30,102 nt of DNA from a virus, in IMG/VR virus record IMGVR_UViG_3300007542_000116, positions 1 through 30,102 of that record, one strand, 5' to 3'. The number at the start of each line of letters is the position of its first letter. Position 1 is the first letter of the stretch. Positions 4,389 through 23,713 of this stretch are shown one piece after another. The translations under genes and the position numbers were made by a program. The notes below the pieces were generated by a model, which saw only the letters and a list, made by a program, of their open reading frames with translations, did no database searches and was not told the origin of the DNA.

Positions 4389-4410
4389 TTCTGTTGACGT
4401 GTGAACAAAT
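4389..4410. promoter_or_regulatory. Dyad operator-like element upstream of primase-helicase
   Basis: The half-sites TTCTGTTGAC and GTGAACAAAT flank a 2-nt spacer; the right half reads ATTTGTTCAC on the other strand. The element lies 12 bp upstream of the primase-helicase ATG and directly abuts the ssb/primase terminator-like hairpin. A TACTAT hexamer overlaps its edge on the minus strand, but no matching -35 is seen because that position falls inside the hairpin. It is one of seven intergenic copies of the same dyad. Confidence 0.6.
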
Positions 4411-4436
4411 AGTAACGGGGGCGAACCCCCGTTACT
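4411..4436 (-). terminator. Perfect 11-bp stem-loop between ssb and primase-helicase
   Basis: AGTAACGGGGG pairs perfectly with CCCCCGTTACT across a 4-nt loop. On the transcribed (minus) strand the loop reads UUCG, a hyper-stable tetraloop. It lies 14 nt after the ssb stop codon and is followed on the minus strand by the U-containing stretch ATTTGTT, short of a classic T-run. It probably terminates or attenuates ssb transcription, giving more ssb than primase transcript. It could also protect the ssb mRNA 3' end. Confidence 0.7.
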
Positions 4437-4450
4437 CGCGAGCAGCGGTG

Positions 4451-5176
4451 CTAGTCGTCGAAGTCTAGATTGTCTAGCGCTGCGTCGATGCTGTCGTAGT
4501 CGTCAACTTTAGCAGGTTTAGCTTTCTTAGGCGCGGCTTCTACCACTTCGGCAACTGGCGCTGGGGTGGGCTTAGGGGCTGGAGCTGGTACTTCATCGAA
4601 GTCGTCACCGAAGCTTTCTACGTTTGCCGTGCTGTCAAAGCCTTCAACTTCGCCAAACGGGCTTGCCAGCTCTCGCTCTTTAAACTTCACAACTTGAACT
4701 GCACGAAGTCGTAGAGACACGCCGTTACCGTTGTTAGAAGAGTACGGCACCAACGCCAGATGGCTGTTGATCGTGCTGCCGGTTGTTAGTTCGAAATCCT
4801 CCGGCAAGAGCTGGTTGCGAGCGTCAAACTGACGTGGCTTCTTTGTTAGCTCATTGTTGTACGAACCTTTCAAGCTCGACTTTACTACGAACCCGCCGTC
4901 GACCTGCTCGAAAACCTCCTTCGCAGATGGCATTTCAGGCCAGTTGGCAGCTTTACGCTGGTTGTACGCATCTGACATGTCTTTATAAAGATTGGCAGCC
5001 TGCTCTTTTTGGAGCTTAAAGTTCAGCTCATACTTTGCACCCTCATCCAACGGGTCACACGGGACGCTCTGCCCTTTGCCGTTGTTGGCCTTGGTGTCGT
5101 ACTTGTACGTCGTGTTGATACGCGGGTACAGGGCTTCGACGTTAGTCAGGATGTGCATTGCGTTAGTTGTAGCCAT
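4451..5176 (-). CDS. ssb: Single-stranded DNA-binding protein (T7 gp2.5-like)
   Basis: This 241-residue protein should coat single-stranded DNA at the replication fork and recruit replication partners. The central segment, with QFDARNQLLPEDFELTTGSTINSHLALVPY and then GVSLRLRAVQVVKF, matches the OB-fold core of T7-like phage SSBs. An Ala/Pro/Lys-rich linker (about 187-225) leads to a strongly acidic tail ending DNLDFDD, the usual partner-binding tail. An in-frame ATG 17 codons upstream (5227) would overlap the previous gene. I chose 5176 because GAGAGG lies 8 nt before it. It is followed by a strong stem-loop, fitting its need for high expression. Confidence 0.9.
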   Translation of the reverse strand: MATTNAMHILTNVEALYPRINTTYKYDTKANNGKGQSVPCDPLDEGAKYELNFKLQKEQAANLYKDMSDAYNQRKAANWPEMPSAKEVFEQVDGGFVVKSSLKGSYNNELTKKPRQFDARNQLLPEDFELTTGSTINSHLALVPYSSNNGNGVSLRLRAVQVVKFKERELASPFGEVEGFDSTANVESFGDDFDEVPAPAPKPTPAPVAEVVEAAPKKAKPAKVDDYDSIDAALDNLDFDD

Positions 5177-5198
5177 GGTAAATTCCTCTCGGGTTTGG

Positions 5199-5708
5199 TT
5201 AATATGTGTAGCCATCAGTGGAACCAAACGGGCTATCCGCTTGCTCCGGCATATGTATAGAAGTGAGTTCGTCTTCGTCTAAAAATCGTGTGACTTTAAA
5301 CGTCAACGTTGCTCGCTGATCTACACGGGTAACGTCGATTTTTGTTACGACGTGTGTTAGTTGTTCGCCTCGTGCTATGACTTGGTCTTCGTAAGCACGA
5401 AACGGTCGGACACTCGCAGCAGGAACGCGAAACGTTTCCGCGTAGTCCGAGTTTGGTTTGCGAAGCGTAAGCTTTATGCTTTCTGCGCAAGCCTTTCCCA
5501 GTTTGCCATTAGGCGTAATTCGGGAACCCCATGTGTTGTTCGTACATACAGAACACTTCTTCGCTTGGGGTTCGGTTGCATTAACAGACGGAACTACACC
5601 GTCATCAGACGAACACAGCTGCTCACCCTCAAGTGACCGGTAGTGTCTAGCTTTGTAAATCCGTGGTAGTACCACGACTTCTACTGGCAGATCATCCATC
5701 GTTAACAT
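5199..5708 (-). CDS. Conserved phage protein with CxxC and GKxGKxC motif
   Basis: A 169-residue protein encoded directly upstream of ssb. It contains CSVCTNNTWGSRITPNGKLGKAC (about residues 52-74), a three-cysteine pattern followed by VPAASVRPFRAYEDQV. This arrangement (CxxC, aromatic-Gly, GKxGKxC, then a P-x-S-x-x-x-F/W-x-x-Y segment) recurs in a family of uncharacterised phage proteins found near replication genes, as far as I recall. A metal site is plausible. The C-terminal part looks beta-rich. It starts adjacent to the stop of the preceding gene (5709), suggesting translational coupling. Function unknown; a role alongside SSB is inference from position only. Confidence 0.8.
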   Translation of the reverse strand: MLTMDDLPVEVVVLPRIYKARHYRSLEGEQLCSSDDGVVPSVNATEPQAKKCSVCTNNTWGSRITPNGKLGKACAESIKLTLRKPNSDYAETFRVPAASVRPFRAYEDQVIARGEQLTHVVTKIDVTRVDQRATLTFKVTRFLDEDELTSIHMPEQADSPFGSTDGYTY

Positions 5709-6110
5709 CTACTTACGCCTAAAATTGACAACTTGAGTTTCTGACCAATTGATACCCGGTGGCAAATCGCCCTCGGCTTCCTTGAATTGCTGGATAGCAG
5801 TTTTGTTTACCCGCCGTTCCAACATCTCCCAAGCATCGTTGTCCTTTACGTGCCCAAGTAACGCGTCCCAATCTGCCACAGTGGCGGAAGAACGTGTTGA
5901 CCTGTAAGCAGTTCCAATGTCGCGTGAAGACACGTTGTCTATTCCCCGGTCTTGGAACCGTCGCAGAAACTCGACCTCGATCTTGTTCTGCTTTGCCTTG
6001 TCCCCTGAGTCGTCGTCGTCATACGCAGCTTTGCGTTGTGCCCGTCGATCTCGCAGGGCGATGAACAGTTTTAGGCAGGAACCGTCATCCAACTCCGATA
6101 TTTTCGTCAT
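5709..6110 (-). CDS. Hypothetical phage early protein (133 aa)
   Basis: The start at 6110 is chosen because AAGGAG lies 8 nt upstream; an upstream in-frame ATG (6158) has no such site and would overlap the AlpA-like gene more deeply. The product is highly charged at its N-terminus (RDRRAQRKAAYDDDDSGDKAKQNK). Its C-terminal half (TAYRSTRSSATVADWDALLG, then NDAWEMLERRVNKTAI, then GDLPPGINW) has the look of a widespread but uncharacterised phage family. No catalytic motif is visible. It overlaps the AlpA-like gene by 26 bp and lies in the operon led by the promoter at 6324-6352. Confidence 0.82.
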   Translation of the reverse strand: MTKISELDDGSCLKLFIALRDRRAQRKAAYDDDDSGDKAKQNKIEVEFLRRFQDRGIDNVSSRDIGTAYRSTRSSATVADWDALLGHVKDNDAWEMLERRVNKTAIQQFKEAEGDLPPGINWSETQVVNFRRK

Positions 6111-6288
6111 TTGTTTTCTCCTTTTTACCGTGTAGCCAGCTGTTAATATCTGCTTCATCCCAACGCAGGACTTTCTGCGAGACCTTGATGGGTTGGGGGA
6201 AGCTTATTTCTCGCCGCCGCAGTGCTGGTAATGCTGCTTTGGTGATGCCCAATTTTTCAGAAACCTCTTCTGGTCGTAGCAAGTTCAT
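6085..6288 (-). CDS. AlpA/MerR-type small DNA-binding regulator (excisionase-like)
   Basis: A 67-residue protein with the winged-helix layout of AlpA/excisionase proteins: LLRPEEVSEKLGITKAALPALRRR (about 3-26, helix-turn-helix), FPQPIKVSQKVLRWDEADINSWL (about 30-52, wing and final helix). Such proteins act as transcriptional regulators or directionality factors. It is the first gene after the well-formed promoter at 6324-6352, which itself carries the recurrent dyad next to its -10 box, so autoregulation is plausible. With no integrase visible, a regulatory rather than excision role is more likely. It overlaps the next gene by 26 bp. Confidence 0.85.
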   Translation of the reverse strand: MNLLRPEEVSEKLGITKAALPALRRREISFPQPIKVSQKVLRWDEADINSWLHGKKEKTNDENIGVG

Positions 6289-6305
6289 ACGCTTTATGCC
6301 TCTAT

Positions 6306-6352
6306 GTGTGTTTACTTGTTAACAGATTAGTGCATATAGGTTCGCCTGTCAA
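6306..6352 (-). promoter_or_regulatory. Sigma70-type promoter with dyad, driving AlpA-like gene and ssb
   Basis: On the minus strand, TTGACA (6347-6352) is followed by a 17-nt spacer and TAATCT (6324-6329). The dyad 6306-6327 (halves GTGTGTTTAC and GTTAACAGAT, 2-nt spacer) overlaps the -10 and the expected start site, an ideal position for repression. The -35 box extends into the stop codon of the helicase gene. It would drive the AlpA-like gene, two small genes and ssb. Confidence 0.8.
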
Positions 6353-7920: not shown

Positions 7921-8318
7921 GGGGTAAATCCTAACTCGGCGTCTAGCTGTCGGATGCGCTCATCGCATATGTGTTTAATCTTTTCGTAGTCGAGCCGTCG
8001 TTGGCCCTCCTTGGTGCGCAAGATACGCTTCACGATGTCAGCGTCCCACGGGTTCAACCCGTACTCCAACCAGATGTCCCAAGGCTGGATCGCATGTCGC
8101 GAATAGTCTGACTCACCGACGTTGTGCGCACGGATTGGGTCTAGCGCCTGCTGGTGTGGAGGCTTCATCTTGTCGATGTACTGCTGCGCCTGCTCCGTGG
8201 TAACGTCACAGTTCAGCGCAATGTCGTAGATGTCGCAATCTAACTGGGTGCCGTAGACGCCCGCAGGTGTGCGGTGCCGCAGCAGGTAGGCCCATACTCT
8301 CTCGTCGGTGTTGTCCAT
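7914..8318 (-). CDS. DUF3310-like protein with N-terminal HTH-like region
   Basis: The C-terminal half (about 78-127) has the DUF3310 pattern: DYSRHAIQPWDIWLEYGLNP, then WDADIVKRILRTKEGQRRLDYEKIKHICDERIRQLD. DUF3310 proteins are widespread in phages and are sometimes called SaV-like or nucleotide-kinase-like; their function is poorly defined. The N-terminal half (VWAYLLRHRTPAGVYGTQLD, then DIALNCDVTTEQAQQYIDKM) resembles a winged helix, so this may be a two-domain protein. It is coupled to the HNH-like gene by TAATG and to the SNF2 gene by a 7-bp overlap. Confidence 0.85.
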   Translation of the reverse strand: MDNTDERVWAYLLRHRTPAGVYGTQLDCDIYDIALNCDVTTEQAQQYIDKMKPPHQQALDPIRAHNVGESDYSRHAIQPWDIWLEYGLNPWDADIVKRILRTKEGQRRLDYEKIKHICDERIRQLDAELGFTPC

Positions 8319-8599: not shown

Positions 8600-8870
8600 C
8601 CTCAACTTGTTTAACGTCGTCGACTACAAGTGCTAACCCGTAAGCAGATTGTATGTCGGCCAATTCACGCTCTTGGTTAGCCGTGACATTCTTTATTTTG
8701 CCCGGTGCCTTCGTCTCGAAAGCCATGAACAAACCTTTGTAGCACACAAGTATATCAGGGCAGCCTACACGTCCCATGCCGTTAGACACAGGCATGTAGT
8801 ACCACGCCCCAATAGACTGAAGGTACTCTTTAACTTTCTTCTTAACTTTACCCTCTGGGGTCATAGCCAT
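8556..8870 (-). CDS. VRR-NUC domain nuclease
   Basis: A 104-residue single-domain protein of the VRR-NUC branch of the PD-(D/E)XK nucleases. Visible are the N-terminal helix TPEGKVKKKVKEYLQSIGAW, the catalytic segment GRVGCPDILVCYKGLFMAFETK (the Asp, and the E-x-K equivalent FETK, at about 33-54), and a trailing QERELADIQSAYGLALVVDD. Phage VRR-NUC proteins are stand-alone and are predicted to resolve branched DNA during replication or recombination, often next to SNF2 helicases, as here. AGAGG lies about 11 nt upstream of the start; a second ATG two codons in is possible. Confidence 0.92.
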   Translation of the reverse strand: MAMTPEGKVKKKVKEYLQSIGAWYYMPVSNGMGRVGCPDILVCYKGLFMAFETKAPGKIKNVTANQERELADIQSAYGLALVVDDVKQVEDAISAKIIEAGTRD

Positions 8871-8882
8871 TCTTAGTACCTC

Positions 8883-9056: not shown

Positions 9057-9059
9057 TAT

Positions 9060-9725
9060 TTATACTCCGCAGAACTCGCAGTTTTGTCTACCTACCGGGC
9101 ACCAGTTCTTGCAGAGGCCGGACGGCTTAGGTGTCCATTTGTCGTCATGGTGGGCTATCGCTAAACGCTTTAGCCGTGGCATGAACTCGTTCCAGATTTC
9201 TGGAAGTTGCTGACGCGTGAACACCTCTTTATCGAACTCACCAGACTTTAACCAGATGAATCCTGTCGTAACCTTATCTACCCAAGGGTACTTAGCAAAC
9301 GCTAAGGCCGCGAACAGTTTCAGCTGGTCCATGTCAGGCTTACGCTTGCCAGTTTTCCAGTCGAGCAGGTACGCTTTCTCTGGACCAACGACGCCGATGT
9401 CGATGATGCCCCGTACCCATACGTCGTCTGCCATCCATTCGGTTGGCCGGAAGCTGCGGTCGAGCGCAATACTTTCCTCGATGACACGCTTGCCCTCATA
9501 GGAAAGTATCTTGTCGACGTACCGCTCGTACTTCGCAATGCTCTTAGGCAAAGGCTTACCGTCCTTAGCGAACAGCTCCAGTGCCGTGTGTACTTCGTTG
9601 CCCCAGTTAGTTGCCTCCGTTTGGGGTTCTTTTACTTTACGCGTCACTCTAGTTAGCTCGAAGCGACGTGGACATGTTTCAAACGCTGTAAGAGCCGAGT
9701 AACTCCAAGGTTTTTTTAATTCCAC
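9060..9725 (-). CDS. PD-(D/E)XK nuclease, RecB/Cas4-like with C-terminal cysteine cluster
   Basis: A 221-residue single-domain nuclease. The start WSYSALTAFETCPRRFEL (with C18) is the family's opening helix; GNEVHTALE is the His-containing motif; IIDIG and LLDWKTGKRK are the catalytic D and D-x-K; and DQLKLFAAL is the Q-x-x-x-Y/F helix. The C-terminal cysteines C205, C209, C216 and C219 form a cluster that, with C18, recalls the iron-sulfur site of Cas4/AddB nucleases. In phages such proteins are predicted 5'-3' exonucleases for recombination or replication. It lies next to the polymerase-side gene, and its start overlaps that gene by 10 bp. Confidence 0.9.
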   Translation of the reverse strand: MELKKPWSYSALTAFETCPRRFELTRVTRKVKEPQTEATNWGNEVHTALELFAKDGKPLPKSIAKYERYVDKILSYEGKRVIEESIALDRSFRPTEWMADDVWVRGIIDIGVVGPEKAYLLDWKTGKRKPDMDQLKLFAALAFAKYPWVDKVTTGFIWLKSGEFDKEVFTRQQLPEIWNEFMPRLKRLAIAHHDDKWTPKPSGLCKNWCPVGRQNCEFCGV

Positions 9726-10282
9726 TGTGGTAGTTTTCCTTCATATATTTCTGTATCGATTATGTCCCAGAACTCTAGCAGCAGTTCGGTACGCAGTTCG
9801 GTCTCCAGCCGCTCCTGCTTTAGCCGTTTGCGCTGCATTTCTAAGAACGCCAGTCGTCGTTGTGCCCATTTATGTTCTTGTTCTGCCATCCATTGCATCC
9901 GCTTAGTATAGGGTATCTGGCCGTAAAGCTCTTCGGCTTTGGTGATGGCTCTTCCCATCCGCTCCCTGCGCGCCTGCTGGATAAACCGCCCATTTACTCG
10001 ACGGTGTATGGCTTGAACTTCGACAAACTGTTGGCTTCGTCTGTCGAACTGATCTCGTACTTCCATTAGATAACCTACAAATCCTTCTAAGTCGTGCGCG
10101 AACGCGCGGATCAAAGGGTTGAGAAACTCATGCGCTTTCGGGAGTAAAAAGATCTCCGGATTGTTAGCATAACTTTGCATGTGTCTATCAGCCACCGTGA
10201 GCCACTCGCGCACTTTGTCTGGGTTTCTTAGCAGCTGTACCGTAACAGCTGCTGTTGGTTCTTCCGTTTTATTTGCTTCCAT
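9716..10282 (-). CDS. Hypothetical coiled-coil protein (188 aa)
   Basis: A charged, largely helical protein. The C-terminal half (AEQEHKWAQRRLAFLEMQRK, then RLKQERLETELRTELLLEFW) is a likely coiled coil, and the middle (VEVQAIHRRVNGRFIQQARRERMGRAI) is Arg-rich and could contact nucleic acid. No enzymatic motif is visible. It sits between the polymerase and the Cas4-like nuclease, as auxiliary replication proteins often do, but its function is unknown. The 179 nt upstream are non-coding and hold no clear promoter. Confidence 0.82.
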   Translation of the reverse strand: MEANKTEEPTAAVTVQLLRNPDKVREWLTVADRHMQSYANNPEIFLLPKAHEFLNPLIRAFAHDLEGFVGYLMEVRDQFDRRSQQFVEVQAIHRRVNGRFIQQARRERMGRAITKAEELYGQIPYTKRMQWMAEQEHKWAQRRLAFLEMQRKRLKQERLETELRTELLLEFWDIIDTEIYEGKLPQWN

Positions 10283-10461: not shown

Positions 10462-12381
10462 TTACTTTGCGTCACCGTAAGTATCACCGATGTCACCTTC
10501 ACTCCATGTAACTAGCTCAGGCCACCATATAGGGGGCGTGCGCATTACTTTCTGTACTAGATCTAGCATGTCCTGCGATTCGCTTTCAGGAACGATGTAA
10601 ACCAGCTCATCGTGAACCATTAACGCAGGGTTTAAGCCTGTAAGATCCTGAACTGTTAACGCGTTGTCAGCAATTACACACCGGGCAAGATGCTGAACGA
10701 TGTTCTCGTCGATCTTCCCTGCATAGATCCGGGCTTTGTTGCGACCGTGCCCATACACAAACTCCATACGTCCGTCGGCCTCGTTACGCTCGGTGCGCAG
10801 GCTTGGGTAACGGATGATGCCTTTAGGTGTCTTTAGCCCTTCAGGGACTGGGACAACCATACCCCACGGGTCGAGAGCAGCCCCCGTCGCACCACGCATA
10901 ATAGTTGGCAGTACATTGTGACATGTGCGCCATCCTCTGGTGATCTCGTAGTAACTGTCCCGCCATTGGTTCACGATGTCTTGGCTCTCAGACTCATCAA
11001 TCTCTACACCGCCCATCAGCTTGGCGACGGTCATAAACGTTTTCCATCCTGCCCCGAAACCCAGCCCAAGGTGGGCAACTTTGCCGACCTGTCGTTGCTG
11101 CTTGGTCACGTTGTCGTATGGTACGGCGTACAGCTTACTGGCGAAGTCTTTATATAGGTCAGCTTTCTCTGGGTCGGCTTGGAACATTGCCGTGCTAGAT
11201 GGCACCTTCCATAAGAAGTGGTTAACACGTAGCTCGATGCCGGACAGATCCGCCACGACGACCTTGTACCCTGCCGGTGCGATCAACGACTTACGCAGTG
11301 CATCCGATGGTCGGGGTGCATACGGATTAACACGTGGTAAGTTCTGTGGGTTGTAGCCCCACCCGCTCCAGCGTCCCGTAGTGTCCGCTCCGTAGTACTT
11401 CAGCGGAATAGGCACCCGTTTGTCAGGGTGCGCGTTAGAGGCGTCTAGGAACGCGTTGATGCGCGTCTGTAGGATCGTTGACTTGGCGTCTAAGCGAGCG
11501 GCTGCTGCTGTAGCAACTATCGGGTTGTCATGTTCTTGTAGCGCAAGGAACTCTTCGTCTGTCTTTGCCAGCGCAGGTATCTCTTTGCCCGTTCGTGCTG
11601 AAATCTTGGTTGGAACTTCCACGCCCACGGTACGTAGGAACGCTGCAAACTTAGCAGCAGACGATAGCAGCTTTAGGATCGCTTCTATGTTCTCCTCGTC
11701 GGTGTGCGCTGCGTCGTAAACGTTCATCTCTTTAGATGCTTCGAGCAGCACCTTCTTCTTACGTATGCCTTCTTCGACCAACGTGCCGTACAACAGTGAA
11801 CTGTTAGCCTCAAACTTTGGCTCGACTAACATGCGGATCGTCATGTCGATAAGCCGCACCTCGTCTTTACGTGTCTGCGGTATGAGTCGTCTCAGTAACG
11901 CGTAACACTGGTCAACGTCGTCCTTGTTATAGAGAGCCATGTCGGCAATCTCTTTCTTGGTGAACTCCGACAAGCGTCGGCCTTTCGTGGCGATGAGCGC
12001 GGACTGGTCTTTGTAGCCTATCTTGTAATGCTCCACGAGCTTGGCCAGTGAACCACCAGCGTCCTTGGCGTGGATTGGTCGAGACATAGCCAGCGTGCAT
12101 CCCCATAGCCGGGGCTTGATGTGCATACGCCATGCTAGGATCATAGAGTCAAAGCCGGACAGGTTGTGCCCGACTACCCAATACTGTGACCAGTCGACCT
12201 TGGACGCATACTCGATAACGTTCGCTTCGCCGAATACAATCTCGGTCTCGCCGTCGTCAAACTTAAACCCACAAGAGATTATCTCTGTGTCAGGGTGCAT
12301 ACAGTAAGCGATGGGGGACATCTTGGACAGGGAGTGCGTGACGCTCCAGTAGGTCTCAAGATCTACGGTACATATTTTCAT
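10462..12381 (-). CDS. Family A DNA polymerase with 3'-5' exonuclease domain
   Basis: A 639-residue replicative polymerase of the phage PolA type without a 5' nuclease domain. Exonuclease motifs are DLE at 7-9, GHNLSGFD at 71-78 and YNKDDVD at 151-157, all carrying the acidic ligands, so proofreading should be intact. Polymerase motif A is DLSGIELR (378-385), motif B RQVGKVAHLGLGFG (430-443) and motif C HDE (590-592). In motif B the residue four after the Lys is Leu438, at the place of E. coli Phe762 / T7 Tyr526. The start has GGAGA 5 nt upstream, preceded closely by a GC-rich hairpin. Assignment is secure. Confidence 0.97.
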   Translation of the reverse strand: MKICTVDLETYWSVTHSLSKMSPIAYCMHPDTEIISCGFKFDDGETEIVFGEANVIEYASKVDWSQYWVVGHNLSGFDSMILAWRMHIKPRLWGCTLAMSRPIHAKDAGGSLAKLVEHYKIGYKDQSALIATKGRRLSEFTKKEIADMALYNKDDVDQCYALLRRLIPQTRKDEVRLIDMTIRMLVEPKFEANSSLLYGTLVEEGIRKKKVLLEASKEMNVYDAAHTDEENIEAILKLLSSAAKFAAFLRTVGVEVPTKISARTGKEIPALAKTDEEFLALQEHDNPIVATAAAARLDAKSTILQTRINAFLDASNAHPDKRVPIPLKYYGADTTGRWSGWGYNPQNLPRVNPYAPRPSDALRKSLIAPAGYKVVVADLSGIELRVNHFLWKVPSSTAMFQADPEKADLYKDFASKLYAVPYDNVTKQQRQVGKVAHLGLGFGAGWKTFMTVAKLMGGVEIDESESQDIVNQWRDSYYEITRGWRTCHNVLPTIMRGATGAALDPWGMVVPVPEGLKTPKGIIRYPSLRTERNEADGRMEFVYGHGRNKARIYAGKIDENIVQHLARCVIADNALTVQDLTGLNPALMVHDELVYIVPESESQDMLDLVQKVMRTPPIWWPELVTWSEGDIGDTYGDAK

Positions 12382-12411: not shown

Positions 12412-12428
12412 GTGCAAAGTTAGCAGAT

Positions 12429-13410: not shown

Positions 13411-14559
13411 CTAGTCCTCGAATTTTATTACGGTGCCCCAGCTGAATGCCGTGGTGCCTGTCGTGAGCCACACTGTTTCGTGGCTGGTCGTGAATTGGGA
13501 TTGATCGCCGTAGCCATCAGTCAGGTAGACAACACACTCGGGCTCGATAGCGTTGTCGTCGATCCAGTCGAACACTGGCTTGAACGATGTACCGCCGCCG
13601 CCCAAGGCTTGGATGCTGACGGGAAAGTCATCAGGTGTGTACTCGTCAACACCTGCTACGGCGTGGTCACAGTAGACAACGTGAACAACCTCAGGGTTAC
13701 ACGTGTCGATGATGCGATTGATGTGACCGTTGAACATAGCGATGTCGTCGTCGGTAACAGAGCAGGACGTATCGACACCGATAACAACCGGCCCCATCTT
13801 AGGTAGATAGTCAACGCCGGGGATGTAGATGTTGCGAGCGATAAACCGGCGGTTGGGTCTGTTCCACGAGTAGCCATCTTTGATCTTGCCTGCCATGAAG
13901 CGCTCAAGAATATCGTACCAAGGGGTCTTCACGTTAACGAGATCGTCGACCAGACGCTCGATACCTGCGGGCAGCTTGCCGACTGCCTTGGCAGCCTTGG
14001 CAGATTGTATGGTCTCGATCTTGGCTTGCGCTTCGAGCTGGTGGATCTGCGCGTCGTCGAGCGGTTTGCCGTCGTCGTCGACGGGGTCGCCTATGTCGTT
14101 ACCGAGACCGCCGGGGCCTTCCCCTTCGCCGTCGTCGGCCTCATCATACAAAGACTCGGCGGCCATGTTGCGAGCGCCGTCCAGCGTAATTCCGCCGTCG
14201 ATGAAGTCGCCGACATTGGCGTCGATCAGGGTGTCGTTGATAACTTTGTCGGCAGCGACATTCCACGCCTTGGCATCTCGGTGTCCCCGGCGCAAACCGT
14301 GGCATAGCATGTAGTGCATCGCCTCATGAGCCAGTAAGAACATGATGTTGCGAACTGACAGTGGCTCGGCAAAGTCTGGGTTGATGTACATCTGACCTGT
14401 CGCTGACATACCGGCGGTCGGTATCTTGTCGGTGTAGATGATAGGCCGTTTGGTGCAGGCGGTCCCAAAGAATGGGTGATCCAAGATCAGTAGTGACTTG
14501 GCCTTGCCTACCTTGCGTTGCACGTCGTCGAGTGCAGTGTGCTGTAGTTGGGCGCTCAT
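13411..14559 (-). CDS. HExxH metallopeptidase-like and VWA domain protein
   Basis: A 382-residue two-domain protein. The N-terminal part carries HEAMH (78-82), the HExxH zinc-peptidase signature, preceded by MFLLA and followed by a helix with W-N-x-A-x-D (99-104), as in the DUF2201 N-terminal domain. An acidic Gly-rich linker (about 139-170) follows. The C-terminal part is a von Willebrand A domain with MIDAS elements DTSCS (263-267), GGGTSF (321-326) and LTDGYGD (346-352). Such proteins are usually partners of MoxR ATPases, here encoded two genes upstream. It may be a metal-dependent protease or a chaperone adaptor. The start has AGGAG 7 nt upstream. Confidence 0.9.
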   Translation of the reverse strand: MSAQLQHTALDDVQRKVGKAKSLLILDHPFFGTACTKRPIIYTDKIPTAGMSATGQMYINPDFAEPLSVRNIMFLLAHEAMHYMLCHGLRRGHRDAKAWNVAADKVINDTLIDANVGDFIDGGITLDGARNMAAESLYDEADDGEGEGPGGLGNDIGDPVDDDGKPLDDAQIHQLEAQAKIETIQSAKAAKAVGKLPAGIERLVDDLVNVKTPWYDILERFMAGKIKDGYSWNRPNRRFIARNIYIPGVDYLPKMGPVVIGVDTSCSVTDDDIAMFNGHINRIIDTCNPEVVHVVYCDHAVAGVDEYTPDDFPVSIQALGGGGTSFKPVFDWIDDNAIEPECVVYLTDGYGDQSQFTTSHETVWLTTGTTAFSWGTVIKFED

Positions 14560-14568: not shown

Positions 14569-15657
14569 CTATACTAGACCTTGCATCTTGCTCATAAGGT
14601 CGTCGATTTGGGTGGCTGCTTTCTCACGTACCGTTGATGAGTTGCGCAGTACGTCTTTGTTGTTGGCGTAGGTGCCGACCAGTGACTGGAGGTCTTTGAT
14701 ACGCTCGGTGATCTCTGGGTCATCTGAGATGTTGATCTTGGCCATACGAGATGAAACCTCGACCATGTTGTCGATAAGACTGTCTCGAAAGATGTGTCCG
14801 TCGTCGCCGATGGTCACCGCCAATTTATTGACAGCGCGTTGCATTGGCTCGATCATCTGGTTGAGGACGTGAGCGCTTGCATTGGCACTGGCATCGTCGA
14901 GCTGGCGTTGCAGACTGTCTTTGTCCTCGTCGCTGATACCCACACGGAAGTCACCTGTCGTAGGCACCGGCATGTAGCGCACCTCGATACTAAACTTGGC
15001 ACGCACCTCGGCGGCGTCAGGGTAGTCGTTGGGGTTGGCAAGGTTCGGCTTACCCTTGGCAAAGGCTATGTCGGCCAAGCGTGCTAAGTCTGCGGTGACC
15101 TCGTGGTCCCAATGCTGGACAAGATCGTCGACCGCATCGTTGGCCTTGTCGATCAGTTGGCGCAGTCCTGCTGTAAAGAACATGTAGTGGTCGATGTTGA
15201 GCAGCTCCACACCAGTAGTCCACGGCACCGTGTTGTCTTTGGCGTATGTATAGACCTCGGTGTACTTGCTGATCGCCTCTTTGACGCGGTTGTTGCGCCC
15301 CTCGAACAGATGCTTGTTAACATTACCTGCGCCGTACGCTCGGCTTTCCTCGGTGTCGAGCTTGTAGGGTGAGTACATCCGGCGCTTGACCTGCACTAGT
15401 ACGGCTTTCTCGTCTAAGTTCTTGATTTGTAACGACTGACGAGGTAACGTGTTAACAGATTCAACACTTGGTACAGTCTCGCTCTTCGGCGGCACTGCAA
15501 ATAGTCGCGCGTTGGTGTTAGCAGGCACGGCGACGGCAATGTCGTCGATGACATTAGCGATCTGTGAAACCGGCGACGTCAATGAGTCGTCGACTTGGTC
15601 TTTCTCCCACTGCTCAACGGCAGCAAGTGCGGCGGCGAGTGTTTCATTGATAGTCAT
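14569..15657 (-). CDS. MoxR/VWA-associated protein, mostly helical (possibly DUF3150-type)
   Basis: A 362-residue protein encoded between the MoxR ATPase (1 nt spacing) and the VWA protein (9 nt). Most of the length is predicted helical, with heptad-like stretches such as DSLQRQLDDASANASAHVLN and EITERIKDLQSLVGTYANNK and a charged C-terminus ending DDLMSKMQGLV. Phage MoxR/VWA loci often carry an uncharacterised third protein at this position, in some cases DUF3150; similarity is plausible but not established here. It may be the substrate or scaffold of the ATPase. A dyad-like sequence occurs inside the gene (15439-15460). Confidence 0.85.
   Translation of the reverse strand: MTINETLAAALAAVEQWEKDQVDDSLTSPVSQIANVIDDIAVAVPANTNARLFAVPPKSETVPSVESVNTLPRQSLQIKNLDEKAVLVQVKRRMYSPYKLDTEESRAYGAGNVNKHLFEGRNNRVKEAISKYTEVYTYAKDNTVPWTTGVELLNIDHYMFFTAGLRQLIDKANDAVDDLVQHWDHEVTADLARLADIAFAKGKPNLANPNDYPDAAEVRAKFSIEVRYMPVPTTGDFRVGISDEDKDSLQRQLDDASANASAHVLNQMIEPMQRAVNKLAVTIGDDGHIFRDSLIDNMVEVSSRMAKINISDDPEITERIKDLQSLVGTYANNKDVLRNSSTVREKAATQIDDLMSKMQGLV
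15439..15460. promoter_or_regulatory. Intragenic copy of the dyad half-site (weak)
   Basis: GTTAACAGAT (15451-15460) is a perfect right half of the recurrent dyad; the left half ACGAGGTAAC is a partial match. It lies inside the helical MoxR-associated gene, so it may be chance or an internal roadblock site. Listed for completeness only. Confidence 0.25.
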
Positions 15658-15658
15658 A

Positions 15659-16714: not shown

Positions 16715-16746
16715 ATATGATTACATGTAAACACGTAAAGTGTCAA
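16715..16746 (-). promoter_or_regulatory. Promoter with dyad for MoxR/VWA operon
   Basis: On the minus strand TTGACA (16741-16746), a 17-nt spacer and TAATCA (16718-16723) form a good sigma70-type promoter, with the expected start near 16711, about 40 nt upstream of the MoxR ATG. The recurrent dyad at 16715-16736 (halves ATATGATTAC and GTAAACACGT) overlaps the -10 and spacer, so regulator binding should block it. Confidence 0.75.
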
Positions 16747-16757: not shown

Positions 16758-17141
16758 TTATGATGCTTTCTTGAGTATCCTTGCGGCACAGTATGCGGCG
16801 TACGATCCTTCCCAAAGGAGGTCGAGCATACCGTCATGGTCTAGCCACAATATGTCGTCGGTTGACGGTCGAGCGTGGCTCTGGTGGCGCGTCGTTGTAT
16901 GGCTATACTTGCTGCCATTGCCGAACCACTGGGCTGCTGTCTCATCATAGGCAAACATGGGAAAATGCTTGCCGTACGAGTAAACGATGTAGAACCCTTT
17001 ACCCTTGTCAGAGGGCAGCGCAGTGGCATCGTCAATATCACCGCTAAACGTGGTGTCCGAAATGATGGTGCCGTTGTTGGTCACGAACTCCTCGCGCCGA
17101 TCGACATACGACCGTACTTCTCTGTTGCTTATTCTAGGCAT
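16758..17141 (-). CDS. Hypothetical protein, paralogue A of a tandem pair (127 aa)
   Basis: The start at 17141 is chosen for its AGGAG site 9 nt upstream; the ORF extends 23 codons further but without a site. It reads MPRISNREVRSYVDRREEF, then a central KGFYIVYSYGKHFPMFAYDE and WFGNG, and ends ILWLDHDGMLDLLWEGSYAA then YCAARILKKAS. The same three blocks occur in the neighbouring gene at 17158-17490, so the two are diverged tandem duplicates. The central block looks beta-stranded, with a Y-x-V-Y-x-Y-G core. No function is recognised. Confidence 0.8.
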   Translation of the reverse strand: MPRISNREVRSYVDRREEFVTNNGTIISDTTFSGDIDDATALPSDKGKGFYIVYSYGKHFPMFAYDETAAQWFGNGSKYSHTTTRHQSHARPSTDDILWLDHDGMLDLLWEGSYAAYCAARILKKAS

Positions 17142-17157
17142 GGTGATGCTCCTCGTG

Positions 17158-17490
17158 TTATTGGTTAAGAATTCTGCGAGCGCAGTGCGCTCCATACGAT
17201 CCAGCATCAATCAGCGACCGCATGTCTTCATGGTCTAGCCAGTTGATCTTGACGTCGGATGCTATTGCTGCGGTCTTGAGTGGCTTGGGGGCGTTCTCGT
17301 ACGTGTCGGCATTACCGAACCACACCTCAAGATCGTCGTCGTATACATACAGAGGGTTGTTGAAGCCATAAGTGTAGACGACATACTTCCCTTTGCCTGA
17401 CAGCATCGAATATAAGGTGCTGTCTTTGATATGAAATGGTAGGCGGCGGTCTACGTAGTCACGCACCTCGTCCTTGCGTATTCTGGTCAT
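17158..17490 (-). CDS. Hypothetical protein, paralogue B of a tandem pair (110 aa)
   Basis: Shares with the gene at 16758-17141: MTRIRKDEVRDYVDRRLPF at the start, KGKYVVYTYGFNNPLYVYDD and WFGNA in the middle, and INWLDHEDMRSLIDAGSYGA then HCARRILNQ at the end. The start at 17490 has an AGGAGCAGCACCATG context almost identical to its neighbours. Paralogue A is longer by a central insertion (a GDIDDATALPSD-type stretch before the beta block). Its start overlaps the 76-residue gene by 32 bp. Function unknown. Confidence 0.8.
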   Translation of the reverse strand: MTRIRKDEVRDYVDRRLPFHIKDSTLYSMLSGKGKYVVYTYGFNNPLYVYDDDLEVWFGNADTYENAPKPLKTAAIASDVKINWLDHEDMRSLIDAGSYGAHCARRILNQ

Positions 17491-17689
17491 GGTGCTGCTC
17501 CTTGATGTCGGCGGCGCAGTCATTGAAGGCAAACCCGCTGCTGACGTCACAACCGATACTGTATGCCTGCTCGACACCGAAATCGTGCCGCCACAGGTAG
17601 GCAAGCTCTTGGTCGGTCAGCGGACAATCGGGGAACCCGTAGTGGGCAAACCACTGTTGCAAGGTTTTGGTGTAGCTTGATCTGGTCAT
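17459..17689 (-). CDS. Hypothetical protein (76 aa)
   Basis: Starts at 17689 behind AGGAGCACCACC. The product reads MTRSSYTKTLQQWFAHYGFP, then DCPLTDQELAYLWRHDFGVE, with a Cys-containing middle (SIGCDVSSGFAFNDCAADI) and a polar tail. The segment from TDQELAYLWRHDFG could be a small helical domain. Its end overlaps the start of paralogue B by 32 bp. I do not recognise it. Confidence 0.65.
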   Translation of the reverse strand: MTRSSYTKTLQQWFAHYGFPDCPLTDQELAYLWRHDFGVEQAYSIGCDVSSGFAFNDCAADIKEQHHDQNTQGRGA

Positions 17690-17699: not shown

Positions 17700-17843
17700 C
17701 TATGGTCGGAACTCGTTATATTTGCGGCACAGAGCGCAGGCATACGAACGATAACGCATGTCTACTTCCATCTTGGTGCCGGTGGGGACGTGTACGATTT
17801 GCCACTTGGTGCCGTGGGGTCGTACGGCGTAGGTCACTTCCAT
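17700..17843 (-). CDS. Small CxxC protein (47 aa)
   Basis: A 47-residue ORF reading MEVTYAVRPHGTKWQIVHVP, then TGTKMEVDMRYRSYACALCR and KYNEFRP. It fits between the 76-residue gene (10 nt gap) and the 74-residue membrane protein (overlap 17834-17843), and its start is coupled by that overlap. The beta-strand-like N-terminus and a C-terminal CALC pair suggest a small zinc- or redox-type domain, though only two Cys are present, so metal binding would need dimerisation. Function unknown. Confidence 0.65.
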   Translation of the reverse strand: MEVTYAVRPHGTKWQIVHVPTGTKMEVDMRYRSYACALCRKYNEFRP

Positions 17844-18058
17844 AGGTCAGTGGGATAGATACACTCGCCTTGGATGTAGTTGCCGACAGCATCAGTGGGG
17901 AATTGCTCGCCGCAGCCTGTTAGCCAGTTGATGGTGATAAACGCCACAAACAGACCTAGTGCTACGCAGGTCAGTGTTTGGCCAGCGGCGTTGATGAGTC
18001 GTTGGCGCAGCTTGGCATGGTCGCGCCGTTTATGCCGGTTGATAAAAGCATCTGTCAT
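17834..18058 (-). CDS. Small single-pass membrane protein (74 aa)
   Basis: The N-terminus is strongly basic (MTDAFINRHKRRDHAKLRQR, about 1-20), followed by a hydrophobic helix at about 29-48 (TCVALGLFVAFITINWLTG) and a C-terminal tail with two Cys (CGEQF..., GECIYP) that could form a disulfide outside the membrane. The positive-inside rule suggests an N-in, C-out topology. The ribosome binding site is GAGG. It is first in line after the iteron region and the dyad at 18070-18091. Function unknown; it could be a superinfection or signalling membrane protein. Confidence 0.7.
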   Translation of the reverse strand: MTDAFINRHKRRDHAKLRQRLINAAGQTLTCVALGLFVAFITINWLTGCGEQFPTDAVGNYIQGECIYPTDLWK

Positions 18059-18069: not shown

Positions 18070-18093
18070 TTATGGTTACACGTAAACAGATAG
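18070..18093. promoter_or_regulatory. Dyad operator-like element upstream of 74-aa membrane gene
   Basis: The halves TTATGGTTAC and GTAAACAGAT flank a 2-nt spacer (18070-18091). On the minus strand CTATCT (18088-18093) abuts the dyad where the -10 lies in the 6306 copy, but no convincing -35 is seen upstream. An extended -10 (TGCTATCT) is possible. It lies 12 bp upstream of the membrane protein's ATG. Confidence 0.5.
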
Positions 18094-18738: not shown

Positions 18739-19245
18739 TTACGCGGCCAAGCGATGGGCACGTTCTACTAACAGGTTAAACAGTTCCGCAGTGGCGGCCG
18801 GGTTGTTGTTAGTCAGCTTGGCATCCTCCTTGGCGTCCATGGCGTCCATCCGCTTCAGAGCAGCGGCCAAGAGAGCATGAACGTCGAGGTCCTTGGCTGC
18901 CTTGGCGGTGCTGTCTTCGGCCTCGTACCATGGCGTTTGGCCCATTAGGTACTCAACAACGGCATCACCGTCGGCAAAATCAGCGCTTTTACGGGCTGAC
19001 TTGTTCAACACGGCTTTTCCTTCGGCGTTGAAGGCGGTAAAGCCGTTAGCCTTGATCCATTTAAGCATCACCTTCTTATTCATACCGCTTGCGCCGTCGA
19101 GGATAGCGTCAAACATACGCGGATCACCTTGCTCGAAGGTATGGCCGGCCACTTCGCACAATACGGCGTGGTATTTGTCTCGCAATTTAGCCGAATTAGA
19201 AGTGATTGATTTAATTGACGCGCGAATTTGTGTTGTTGATCGCAT
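18739..19245 (-). CDS. Hypothetical early protein (168 aa)
   Basis: The start at 19245 is preferred: CGGAGC lies 8 nt upstream. An ORF extending 25 codons further up lacks a site. The product starts MRSTTQIRASIKSITSNSAK and contains GHTFEQGDPRMFDAILDGAS, KKVMLKWIKANGFTAFN, and EDSTAKAAKDLDVHALLAAA, then a polar Ala-rich end. It is soluble and mostly helical. The central KWIKANGF and WYEAED segments look like a known but uncharacterised phage family. Being first in the leftward arm, it may be among the earliest expressed genes. Function unknown. Confidence 0.8.
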   Translation of the reverse strand: MRSTTQIRASIKSITSNSAKLRDKYHAVLCEVAGHTFEQGDPRMFDAILDGASGMNKKVMLKWIKANGFTAFNAEGKAVLNKSARKSADFADGDAVVEYLMGQTPWYEAEDSTAKAAKDLDVHALLAAALKRMDAMDAKEDAKLTNNNPAATAELFNLLVERAHRLAA

Positions 19246-19286
19246 GATAGTGCTCCGAATATTTAAGGGATTAAGGAGGTATACAC

Positions 19287-19370
19287 TTGCATAAATGTAC
19301 ACCTTGTAAGCCCCTGACAACTAAAGCCATTGCAATTCTCGTAGCGAAACAAGTCATTAACAGTTGTTAA
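19287..19370 (+). CDS. Possible 27-codon leader-like ORF with perfect Shine-Dalgarno (uncertain)
   Basis: A TAAGGAGGT at 19272-19280 (the full complement of the 16S rRNA tail) is followed 6-7 nt later by TTG and 27 open codons, MHKCTPCKPLTTKAIAILVA then KQVINSC and stop. It is on the plus strand, antisense to the leader of the 168-residue gene. A hairpin and T-run follow at 19402-19445. A small independent unit is possible; chance is equally so. Confidence 0.22.
   Translation: MHKCTPCKPLTTKAIAILVAKQVINSC
19357..19370. repeat. TTAACA / TGTTAA inverted repeat in the divergent region
   Basis: TTAACA and TGTTAA flank a GT, and AGTT/AACT extend the symmetry on the right side. It resembles a half-site pair of the recurrent dyad but in the opposite geometry. 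It lies about 110 bp upstream of the 168-residue gene's start on the minus strand. Confidence 0.35.
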
Positions 19371-19401
19371 CTGTACAAGATTCACCGGCGTTACCCGATC
19401 G

Positions 19402-19665: not shown

Positions 19666-19759
19666 CCCATCCTTAGGTAACACGTATACCGCGCCCCAAA
19701 TTTTGACCCTTTTAAGCACACAACAGCTTATTCAGTTGATCCTACAGAGGCACCAATTA

Positions 19760-19790
19760 TTGACATATAGGTGTTCACGCGTTAGCATCT
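19760..19790 (+). promoter_or_regulatory. terS promoter with dyad
   Basis: TTGACA (19760-19765), a 17-nt spacer and TAGCAT (19783-19788) form the promoter. The dyad 19769-19790 (halves AGGTGTTCAC and GTTAGCATCT) covers spacer and -10. The expected start, about 19795, falls 1-2 nt before the terS ATG, with no ribosome binding site, so translation may be leaderless. This promoter opens the rightward late block. Confidence 0.75.
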
Positions 19791-19796
19791 GTCGCT

Positions 19797-20147: not shown

Positions 20148-21552
20148 AGTTAATTTTGAGGTTATCCGTAGCCTAGACGAGTTCTTCTACTCGCAGCAGT
20201 TCATATCCTTAGCCGTTGGCCCTGTTGGGTCGACTAAAACGACAGCCGGTATCATGAAGATCGTGCATCACGCGGCACTCATGGCGGCCTGTAAGGATGG
20301 AGTGCGCAGATCCCGGTGTATTTGGGTACGAAACACGCGAGAACAGCTCCGAGACACGTCAATTCCAGACTTTTTAAAGTGGATTCCAGACGGTATAATG
20401 GGCTCTTTTCTCAAAACTGAGTACAAATTCGTCATAAAAATAGGCGATATTGAGTGCGAAGTGCTGTTTCGAGGGCTAGATGACGCTAACGACGTACGCC
20501 GCCTACTCTCTTTACAGGCCAGTTTCATCATATTCGACGAGTTCCGGGAGATTCACCCTGACATCTACAACGCCGCACAAGGCCGAGTAGGACGGTACCC
20601 CGATAAAATGATGAACGGTGTTGGTTGCAAAACTGACGACGGTAAGCCGAACGCGCACCTCTGGGGAATGACCAACCCACCAGATGTCGACACGTTCTGG
20701 GAAACCTTGCTCACCGATCCCCCATCGAACGTACACGTCACGATCCAGCCCAGCGGTCTGTCCCCCGAAGCAGACTGGACCGAGTTTCTACCCGACGACT
20801 ACTACGACAACCTCGCGAAGGGTAAGACCGAGGACTGGATCGACGTATACATCAACGCAGAGTTCGGCAAATCGCTGTCAGGTCTGCCCGTGTTCCGTTC
20901 GTTTGACAGAACCAACCACGTAGCCAAGGCAGCCATAAAGCCGCTCTACTCCGACGACCCCCTGATAATCGGCGTTGATGCAGGGTTAACCCCCGCAGCG
21001 GTGATTGGGCAGGTAGCCTACGATGGGCGCTTGATCGTGTACGATGCCAAAACATCAGACGGTATGGGCGCACTGCGTTTCGTCCGTGAAGTCATAAAAC
21101 CTCTACTGGTTAACAAGTTCCCCGGTAGACGATGCGTCGTTATTATTGACCCAGCGGCATTTCAGCGGGTCCAGACGGATGAGCGCACAGTAGCAGACAT
21201 CTGGCGTAACGAAGGCTTCTCAGTCAAGAGCGCTAAGACAAACTCAGTGGCAGCACGGATCTCAGCAGTTGATAAGCACCTCACCCGCGTTGTCGACGGA
21301 AAGCATGGTGTCGTTATAGATCCTGAAAGCGCGTTACCGCTCGTACAGGCACTGGCGGGTAAGTACCGATACAAAATAAACACGAAAGGTGTTCGGGACG
21401 AGAGCCCTGAGAAGTCGCACCCTTGGTCCGATGTAGCAGATGCGTTCCAGTATATGTGCCTGCACGCGGATGGCGGTGAGACGTTTGGGGGAATGGCTTC
21501 TACTGACCAGCGCCGATCTGTCGTTAAAGTCTCTTCAAGAGGTTGGACATAA
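20137..21552 (+). CDS. terL: Terminase large subunit
   Basis: A 471-residue packaging motor. The ATPase has a Walker A variant GPVGSTKTT (28-36) and Walker B FIIFDEF (130-136). The nuclease domain shows acidic residues at GVDAG (D281), VIIDPAAF (D338) and HPWSDVADAF (D432/D435), the RNase H-like set that cuts the concatemer. It pumps DNA into the procapsid through the portal encoded downstream. The ATG lies inside the terS reading frame, so the two are translationally coupled. A promoter with a dyad follows the gene. Assignment is secure. Confidence 0.96.
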   Translation: MLHEVNFEVIRSLDEFFYSQQFISLAVGPVGSTKTTAGIMKIVHHAALMAACKDGVRRSRCIWVRNTREQLRDTSIPDFLKWIPDGIMGSFLKTEYKFVIKIGDIECEVLFRGLDDANDVRRLLSLQASFIIFDEFREIHPDIYNAAQGRVGRYPDKMMNGVGCKTDDGKPNAHLWGMTNPPDVDTFWETLLTDPPSNVHVTIQPSGLSPEADWTEFLPDDYYDNLAKGKTEDWIDVYINAEFGKSLSGLPVFRSFDRTNHVAKAAIKPLYSDDPLIIGVDAGLTPAAVIGQVAYDGRLIVYDAKTSDGMGALRFVREVIKPLLVNKFPGRRCVVIIDPAAFQRVQTDERTVADIWRNEGFSVKSAKTNSVAARISAVDKHLTRVVDGKHGVVIDPESALPLVQALAGKYRYKINTKGVRDESPEKSHPWSDVADAFQYMCLHADGGETFGGMASTDQRRSVVKVSSRGWT

Positions 21553-21585
21553 TCTGTTGACCTGTTAGCAGATAAGAGTTATGGT
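21552..21585 (+). promoter_or_regulatory. Portal promoter with the best-formed dyad
   Basis: TTGACC (21557-21562), a 17-nt spacer and TATGGT (21580-21585) give a promoter about 30 bp upstream of the portal ATG. The dyad 21552-21573 begins at the terL stop codon, with halves ATCTGTTGAC and GTTAGCAGAT that agree at 8 of 10 positions. It covers the -35 and spacer. Confidence 0.75.
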
Positions 21586-21618
21586 GTCGCCAGTATCGCA
21601 CATGTGAGATAGTATTAA

Positions 21619-23673
21619 ATGGCACTTGGTTCGCAACTTATTCCCATTGCGCGTGCCTCTGATCTAGAGGCTGCGGCGCAGCGCGAGTCTGCTGAAAAGC
21701 AGATGACCCCTATGATACAAGGTCTGTCAGCACACGTCCGCCGTCGGTGGGAAGTGATGCGGGACCACAAACGTAATACAATCGAGGATCGGTTGTCTGC
21801 GTGCGTACGGGCACGGAATATGGAGTACGACCCCGGCAAGATGGCTGAGATCCGCGAAATGGGCGGTTCAGAGATCTTTATGGGTATCGTCAGCACCAAG
21901 TGCAGAACGGCTACAGCTTGGTTGCGTGATACGCTTCTAGGCGTTGAGGCTGATAAGCCTTGGGCCTTGTCTGCTACCCCTATCCCCGAGGTACCGCCTG
22001 AAGTTGCAGCAAACTTGCAGCGCATTATGGCGGCGAACCTACAGCAGTACTACGCTGAGGGTAACCAGCAGCTAGACCCCATGGAACTCAAAGAACTCGC
22101 AGCGGGCATGAAAGATACAGCTACGCGGAGCATGAAGCACGAGGCAGAGAAACGCGTCGAGCGCATGGAGTTGAAGATGCAAGACCAGCTCGCTGAAGGC
22201 GGTTGGGTCAAGGCACTCTACGAATTTACAAACGACCTTGCGACATTCCCGTTCGCAGTCCTCAAAGGTCCGATCCCCCGAAAACGCAAAGCTATGAAGT
22301 ACGTGAAAGGTGGCCTAGCCGCTATTGACGTATTGCGTGACGAGTGGGAACGCGTTGACCCTTACAAGTTCTTCTGGTCCCCGTGGGGCGATGATATTCA
22401 GAACATGCCTGTCATGGAGCTTCACCATTTAACACGTGAAGACCTTGAGGCGATGCTGGGTGTTGAAGGCTACGATGAATCGGCGATCCGTACGCTCCTC
22501 ATGGACTTCGGCTCAGGCGGTTTTGGTTGGCTTGACCAGACAGACAGCGAAATGGAAGCCGTAACAGGTAAAGACTTTGACGACGCAACCACCGAGATCG
22601 TTGCAGCGTTGCAGTTATGGGACTCTATTCCCGGAAAGCTCCTCATAGAGTGGGGCATGTCCGAAGAAGAAGTTGAAGACCCGCACAAGTCCTATCCGTG
22701 CGAAGTCTGGATGATAAACAACGTCATCATCAAAGCTGTTTTGAACTACGACCCTCTTGGGCGTAAACCGTACTACCTGACTTCTTTCGAGAAGGTTCCC
22801 GGTCGAATAGACGGAAACGGGGTAGCGGATCTGTGTATCGACGCGCAAAACATGTGTAACGCTGCCGCTCGGGCGCTGGCTAACAACATGGGTATCTCGT
22901 CGGGTCCGCAGGTAGGCGTTAACGTAAGTCGTCTGCCAGCAGGCGAAGACATTACGCAGATGCACCCTTGGAAGATTTGGCAGTTCAAAACCTCAGAATA
23001 TGGCGATGCTTCGCCCCCAATGCAGTTTTTCCAGCCCAACTCTAACGCGGGCGAACTTATGGGCGTTTTCGATAAGTTTATGGAACTTGCAGACGAAGTA
23101 TCAGGTATCCCGCGTTATATGACGGGTCAGCATGTTCCGGGCGCAGGACGCACGTCGTCCGGCTTGTCTATGCTTATCTCTAACGCTGGTAAGAGTATAA
23201 AGCAGGTTATCGGCAACGTTGACCACGATGTCATTACTCCGATGCTCGAGCGTCAGTACCAGCGTAACCTACGGTACTCTGACGACCCGGACTTGATCGG
23301 AGACGTACAGATTATCGCTCGAGGCGCTATGTCGCTGGTTGTCAAGGAAGCTGAGGCTGTTCGTAAGAACGAGTTCCTCCGTCTTATCTTGGAAAGCCCT
23401 GTCGCACAGCAGATTGTTGGGCCTGAGGGAACCGCCGAACTTATGCGAGATCTGGCGGGCAACCTTAATACTAACGTTGATCGTCTCGTCCCTAGCCGTG
23501 AAGACATCCTGAAGAAGCAAGCTGAGCAGCAAATGATGATGCAGCAGCAACAGGCCATGGCCGCGGCGCAAGGAGCACAGGGTTCACAAGGCCCCGCTAA
23601 CTTGCAGGAAGACGGAACACCTCAGGGAGGGCGACAAGAGAACAACTTTAGCCCTAAACCAAACGGCGTCTAA
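21619..23673 (+). CDS. Portal (head-tail connector) protein
   Basis: A 684-residue portal that would form the dodecameric ring at the capsid vertex through which DNA enters and leaves. Recognisable segments include VDPYKFFWSPWGDDIQNM, the conserved-looking PYYLTSFEKVPGRIDGNGVA near the middle and GRTSSGLSMLISNAGKSIKQ (about 510-530), typical of podovirus portals. The C-terminus is Gln/Met/Ala-rich (KKQAEQQMMMQQQQAMAAAQ), as in the helical barrel or tail of such portals. Length fits the podovirus type. GAG lies about 8 nt before the start. Confidence 0.93.
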   Translation: MALGSQLIPIARASDLEAAAQRESAEKQMTPMIQGLSAHVRRRWEVMRDHKRNTIEDRLSACVRARNMEYDPGKMAEIREMGGSEIFMGIVSTKCRTATAWLRDTLLGVEADKPWALSATPIPEVPPEVAANLQRIMAANLQQYYAEGNQQLDPMELKELAAGMKDTATRSMKHEAEKRVERMELKMQDQLAEGGWVKALYEFTNDLATFPFAVLKGPIPRKRKAMKYVKGGLAAIDVLRDEWERVDPYKFFWSPWGDDIQNMPVMELHHLTREDLEAMLGVEGYDESAIRTLLMDFGSGGFGWLDQTDSEMEAVTGKDFDDATTEIVAALQLWDSIPGKLLIEWGMSEEEVEDPHKSYPCEVWMINNVIIKAVLNYDPLGRKPYYLTSFEKVPGRIDGNGVADLCIDAQNMCNAAARALANNMGISSGPQVGVNVSRLPAGEDITQMHPWKIWQFKTSEYGDASPPMQFFQPNSNAGELMGVFDKFMELADEVSGIPRYMTGQHVPGAGRTSSGLSMLISNAGKSIKQVIGNVDHDVITPMLERQYQRNLRYSDDPDLIGDVQIIARGAMSLVVKEAEAVRKNEFLRLILESPVAQQIVGPEGTAELMRDLAGNLNTNVDRLVPSREDILKKQAEQQMMMQQQQAMAAAQGAQGSQGPANLQEDGTPQGGRQENNFSPKPNGV

Positions 23674-23679
23674 CGGTGT

Positions 23680-23713
23680 ATCTGTTGACACGTAACCACA
23701 TTTAGGATAGTTT
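23680..23713 (+). promoter_or_regulatory. Promoter with dyad for the 77-aa/scaffold/capsid genes
   Basis: TTGACA (23685-23690), a 17-nt spacer and TAGTTT (23708-23713). The predicted start coincides with the A of the ATG at 23720, and AGGA is too far upstream (13 nt) to serve well, so the transcript may be leaderless. The dyad at 23680-23701 has a perfect left half ATCTGTTGAC and a degenerate right half GTAACCACAT. Confidence 0.65.

Follow-up and report, generated by a model that had tools for sequence, protein, structure and literature searches.

A dispersed, lineage-specific dyad and its candidate regulator in a group of phages

Dyads in the window and in its relatives

The window analysed here is the entire IMG/VR record IMGVR_UViG_3300007542_000116, a 30,102-nucleotide (nt) fragment of a viral genome that carries, among others, genes for a primase, an AlpA-like helix-turn-helix (HTH) protein, a PD-(D/E)XK nuclease, DNA polymerase A (polA), an ATPase, the terminase subunits (terS and terL), the portal and the major capsid protein (Table 1). 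Scattered between and within these genes lies a 22-bp inverted repeat (hereafter the dyad, or the marine dyad where other dyads are discussed), which a first-pass annotation had described at seven intergenic places as a single recurrent, operator-like element standing ahead of early, accessory and late genes. All seven were found exactly where they had been placed, and the element proved to be kept in relatives far beyond chance. Scoring with a symmetric matrix yielded the refined consensus ANNTGTTNACRYGTNAACANNT, and a symmetry test showed that the sites are symmetric dyads rather than asymmetric 13-bp sites in one orientation.

In order to avoid circularity, an independent matrix was built from 92 training sites of other genomes (the window and its closest kin being excluded), and at a threshold of >= 10 bits it recovered 15 sites in the window, against a mean of 0.42 and a maximum of 2 in 100 shuffled sequences. 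Eight of these dyads are intergenic and seven intragenic (5892, 8628, 9205, 10651, 13633, 15439 and 28880), so that the original list, sound for its seven entries, lacked one intergenic site (25035) and every intragenic one. The earlier restriction of the dyad to promoters does not hold, as 7 of the 15 sites fall within genes and several of them are kept beyond what the protein constrains. The 22-bp consensus proposed at first matched 5 times in the window with <= 3 mismatches (0.01 expected); the sites at 16715 and 19769 are farther from its literal form and score 24.9 and 21.6 bits with the matrix. As for two isolated half-sites reported alongside, the one at 15451 actually belongs to the full site at 15439, as its right half, and the one at 12419 is indeed a lone half-site.

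Terminase and primase searches gathered around 100 related loci, including several near-complete genomes of 57-63 kb, and the near-complete marine relatives contain 16-23 merged dyad sites per genome. Orthologous placement was scored as a dyad of >= 12 bits just upstream of a gene, for which random 150-mers gave a 5% background. By this measure the dyad precedes 96% of the AlpA, 95% of the 77-aa gene, 92% of the portal, 87% of the ATPase, 85% of the terS and 76% of both the capsid and the primase orthologues (counts in Table 1), at a distance that is nearly fixed for each gene, and it precedes 0% of the orthologues of six control genes (SNF2, terL, polA, scaffold, DUF2201 and g229). When 2.9 million viral contigs were scanned for the exact pattern, 112 stretches came back; as every newly fetched locus except one carried genes of this phage group, the dyad is a near-signature of the group. 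No such dyad was found in the distant terminase relatives BcepC6B, Hodr, VA-RY-3 and Y3, nor in Rollin, and among the Gluconacetobacter prophage relatives no dyad family stood out from GC or T-run background. We found no description of these dyads in the literature and no match in Rfam.

Table 1. Dyad sites and associated protein-coding features of the window (P values from synonymous codon re-drawing, given protein and codon usage).
Feature	Position	Context	Score and evidence
Dyad	4389..4410	12 nt upstream of primase gene (4377, minus strand)	23.4 bits; 19/25 primase orthologues
Dyad	5892..5913	Within 5709-6158 gene	23.3 bits; P=0.0013; several dyad-rich relatives keep the site
Dyad	6306..6327	Upstream of AlpA-like gene	24.9 bits; 25/26 AlpA orthologues (first locus set)
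Dyad	8628..8649	Within 104-aa gene	23.1 bits; P=0.0013
Dyad	9205..9226	Within PD-(D/E)XK nuclease gene	19.1 bits; P=0.32; kept, yet protein alone may explain it
Dyad	10651..10672	Within DNA polymerase A gene	15.0 bits; P=0.003; few relatives show the site
Dyad	13633..13654	Within DUF2201 metallopeptidase/VWA gene	16.7 bits; P=0.003
Dyad	15439..15460	Within 362-aa gene	22.4 bits; P=0.017
Dyad	16715..16736	Upstream of 337-aa ATPase gene, over minus-strand -10	24.9 bits; 20/23 orthologues; TTGACA-18-AATCAT
Dyad	18070..18091	12 nt upstream of 74-aa gene (17834-18058, minus strand)	22.5 bits
Dyad	19769..19790	Just upstream of terS, over -10	21.6 bits; 47/55 orthologues; TTGACA-17-TAGCAT at 19760-19788
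Dyad	21552..21573	At terL stop, upstream of portal, contains -35	28.0 bits; 66/72 orthologues; TTGACC-17-TATGGT
Dyad	23680..23701	Upstream of 77-aa gene, contains -35	26.6 bits; 73/77 orthologues
Dyad	25035..25056	Upstream of major capsid gene; missed by first-pass annotation	20.2 bits; 54/71 orthologues
Dyad	28880..28901	Within 348-aa gene	19.6 bits; P=0.20
R190, 188-aa protein (minus strand), best candidate for dyad-binding regulator	9716..10282		Co-occurrence with dyads; conserved basic stretch
AlpA-like HTH protein (minus strand), more probably a target than the binder	6085..6288		PF05930, E=1.5e-7

The dyad at 4389 is adjoined by a strong stem-loop (AGTAACGGGGGTTCGCCCCCGTTACT, 4411-4436, minus strand) between the annealing-protein and primase genes, and relatives have a stem-loop of altered sequence. 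Two short neighbouring genes (16758-17210 and 17158-17604) look paralogous, sharing a YxVYxYG...WFGN...WLDHD motif.

Dyads over promoters and within genes

Where terL meets portal, the left half of the dyad includes a TTGAC (-35) element, with TANNNT 17 bp on. Of 105 intergenic sites, 27 have TTGAC at dyad position +5 and 16 have TANNNT a further 17 bp on (mean of 2.4 at other offsets). This register is visible only in the alignment of many dyad sites; a plain promoter scan of the window gave 11 promoters against 15.7 expected, overall not above chance. The proposed overlap with promoters is borne out in part. In a dyad-free sister lineage (G015/L043-L046) the portal promoter is retained (TTGACT-17-TACTTT) while the dyad has eroded, and since the promoter survives the loss of the dyad, we regard the latter as a separate operator laid over it. 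Many sites lie away from promoters: of the 105 intergenic ones, 39 end <= 20 nt from a start codon, and among 174 dyad sites 60 are intragenic.

When synonymous codons were re-drawn under the given protein and codon usage, four of the intragenic sites in the window (5892, 8628, 10651 and 13633) were unexpected at P = 0.001-0.003 and a fifth (15439) at P = 0.017; for the remaining two (9205 and 28880, P = 0.2-0.3) the protein alone could account for the match. Within the 104-aa gene the dyad persists in relatives while its free-position codon varies (Y/N/H) and the flanking codons change, and it is gone in the dyad-poor lineage despite most of the peptide being retained.

Different dyads in homologous phages and a candidate reader

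De novo dyad counting revealed a different palindrome, GTTACCTYNNRAGGTAAC, in Rhizobium phage RHph_TM27A (MN988461.1, L152/L153), with 44 copies (<= 3 mismatches) over 60.9 kb, many of them intragenic or over start codons, and one directly after the terL stop, which is the orthologous place. Five related contigs of 58-65 kb (G020-G024; with this palindrome, the GTTACCT phages) hold 42-76 copies at <= 2 mismatches (0-1 for a control pattern), or 52-82 sites by matrix. A 60-kb phage contig of a Cloacimonadota assembly (L377-L380) bears TGAAAACGTTTTCA-type dyads, many of which closely precede start codons, and 25 of the 26 exact TGAAAANNTTTTCA copies in this 2-Mb assembly are on the phage contig, leaving one in the other 1.9 Mb; the core of this dyad resembles LacI-family operators. 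Among relatives with no marine dyad, G035 (L467-L468) has a set of its own (AGTATC-N3-GATACT, 9 sites at <= 2 mismatches), and G034 (L465-L466) and G037 (L471-L472) have 3-4 exact copies of AGTCCA-N3-TGGACT. Mismatches mostly affect one half-site (94 single versus 16 double in marine sites, 470 versus 70 in GTTACCT sites), and therefore protein half-sites fit better than a required hairpin. As a side note on the annotation of RHph_TM27A, its 'putative integrase' (L152:42248-45331) is a homologue of the primase/DUF927 protein of the window, and is probably misannotated.

Comparing gene content between dyad-positive and dyad-negative relatives, one family stood out: R190 (179-211 aa), shown at the region by 11 genomes, all of them dyad-positive, and by no dyad-negative genome. 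Its slot lies between the polA and PD-(D/E)XK nuclease genes, which are 620-1475 nt apart where R190 is present and mostly ~240-280 nt apart where it is not. All 22 loci that cover the slot and carry R190 have at least 0.25 dyads/kb; from the 11 marine-type loci without it, five are dyad-free and six (all G006-like) keep dyads. R190 contains a strongly conserved basic stretch (RRxNGRxxQQxRRxR). The 400 nt upstream of 17 of 18 R190 genes include a dyad-like site scoring >= 8 bits (background of 1.8%), which in a few cases is the polA-internal site. In five of six GTTACCT genomes this slot is occupied by a winged-helix protein of PhoB-like type, 104-172 aa long (in the sixth such a protein stands beside the primase instead), which resembles the DNA-binding domain of PhoB (PDB 5dcm, E=2e-5) and matches Trans_reg_C in two members; the PhoB-like protein of RHph_TM27A has 119 aa. 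That different proteins occupy one slot in lineages with different dyads is, among the comparative evidence, the strongest suggestion that the regulator is encoded there, and on these sequence comparisons R190 is most likely the dyad binder in this clade.

Other candidates were set aside. The two HTH proteins named by the first-pass annotation as possible binders found no support in the comparison: G001 lacks a homologue of the 1145-1429 protein at the corresponding place, and the AlpA-like protein is taken up below. A phrog_1448-like early gene (18739-19320, minus strand) occurs in dyad-free relatives too; its product has a confident helical fold model, whose structural relatives are only uncharacterised proteins of other podoviruses. 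The 251-aa early gene of the RHph type gave a weak model, with relatives only of its own kind and no link to phrog_1448. An HTH_3 (lambda CI-like) repressor had no match above cut-off in 16 genomes, and a search for a serine recombinase found none.

The dyads as probable dispersed operators and their possible role

We reason, with a probability of about 60%, that the dyads are dispersed operators of a phage-encoded DNA-binding protein, likeliest R190, that would silence lytic genes. The binder would be sequence-specific, would probably read TGTTNAC half-sites as a dimer, and would act across the whole phage genome. Over a -35 or -10 element the bound protein would block initiation, while at intragenic dyads, or in short gaps near start codons, it would possibly impede elongation, by analogy with the elongation block by bound sites that has been proposed for mycobacteriophage stoperators (PMC9283540, PMC6550527). 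Most likely it would serve to keep lytic genes switched off during lysogeny and to confer immunity to related phages, and regulator and operators would change together between lineages. Lysogenic silencing or superinfection immunity leads here because integrases occur in both dyad groups (tyrosine integrase PF00589 in G002-G005, G031, G022 and G024; an integrase also in G001). More tentatively, an operator code may be exchanged as a unit, composed of a lineage dyad (up to ~80 copies per 60 kb, often intragenic) and a lineage-specific regulator that usually occupies the slot, with R190 as a new DNA-binding family.

Several observations weigh against silencing by R190. The six G006-like loci without it, in which a profile search also found no R190, keep 0.16-0.55 dyads/kb (the best before AlpA), and the upstream gap of R190 in the window has no good dyad except the polA-internal site. 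Neither a DNA-binding domain nor an annotated relative could be detected for R190: Pfam, PHROGs, PDB and the phage collection gave no convincing match. The counts given for R190 are not independent events, as the loci share ancestry. Finally, G020, G021, G023, G030 and RHph_TM27A yielded no integrase, and therefore lysogeny is not the whole story.

A role in organising, condensing or partitioning the phage genome (ParB/KorB- or nucleoid-like), to which promoter overlap would be secondary, would suit the many intragenic sites, the counts, which reach 82 per genome, and the spacing in G021 and G023, which is mildly more regular than random; yet spacing is random in the marine genomes, ParB_N was found in none of 14 genomes, and dyads occur preferentially in intergenic DNA and keep fixed places before the same genes, which makes such a role unlikely. 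That the AlpA-like protein binds the dyads, autoregulating from the one before its own gene, was favoured early for its adjacent dyads: it has a recognised HTH, a dyad precedes nearly all its orthologues in the first locus set, and the AlpA dyad is the strongest remaining in the dyad-poor G006-like lineage. We dropped it as improbable because a sister clade keeps an AlpA of 75-88% identity, in which the recognition helix (ITK(G/A)ALPALRRRE) has hardly changed, and has zero dyads, including before AlpA; for the same reason AlpA is more likely a target. Moreover, a profile search found no AlpA in the GTTACCT phages.

Two further readings are harder to sustain. Were the dyads RNA hairpins near ribosome-binding sites, one could understand why about half of the intergenic sites in GTTACCT phages lie <= 20 nt from a start codon and why their arm (AGGT) is Shine-Dalgarno-like, but the predominantly single-sided mismatches, the 2-nt centre of the marine sites and the many intragenic sites render this highly improbable. 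A host transcription factor, through which the phage would respond to the state of its host, is the least probable reader: although dyads overlap sigma-70-like promoters, the dyad differs between homologous phages, and the exact sites of the Cloacimonadota assembly are concentrated on its phage contig.

Scattered palindromic operators have precedents, as the phiC31 repressor binds conserved inverted repeats (CILs) dispersed over a temperate phage genome and the KorB operators of plasmid RK2 are palindromic sites spread over ~60 kb. The CILs are likewise palindromic, scattered repressor sites, although phages and repressor are unrelated to ours and the sites are fewer; the KorB operators share the spread of palindromic sites, but no ParB_N was found in the dyad phages. 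KorB itself is a ParB-type CTP clamp that silences promoters at a distance (PMC11790492). Cluster A mycobacteriophages (L5, TipsytheTRex) have 20-30 genome-wide repressor sites in promoters and short gaps, the stoperators, which are asymmetric 13-mers in one orientation bound by a monomeric repressor that combines an HTH with a stoperator domain (PMC6550527, PMC9283540). The dyads resemble them in combining a lineage-specific site in many genome-wide copies with a regulator of its own (here a candidate), and the copy numbers (16-23 in marine phages, 42-82 in GTTACCT phages and 26 in G019) reach the level of at least 20 that is typical of stoperators. Unlike stoperators, the dyads are symmetric, 15-22 bp long and often intragenic, with as many as 82 in one genome, and no sequence link was found for the candidate binders, no direct comparison with the L5 repressor being included. 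The start-associated and extended sequences (SAS/ESAS) of cluster K mycobacteriophages are repeats just upstream of start codons with lineage-specific inverted repeats (PMC3203893); unlike the dyads, the SAS are asymmetric and limited to the non-structural half of the genome (PMC3203893). Since the dyads are stoperator-like in layout and lack the asymmetry of stoperators, we place them among the scattered operators of phages as a variant.

Only a few systems of dispersed repressor sites in phages have been studied well, chiefly the mycobacteriophage stoperators. The dyad phages provide a large and independent natural experiment, in which homologues carry several unrelated operator sequences, dyad-free sisters keep their promoters intact and intragenic sites are under selection at the DNA level. 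Their comparison could test how immunity specificity evolves and what role non-promoter operators play, and it names the R190 family for assay.

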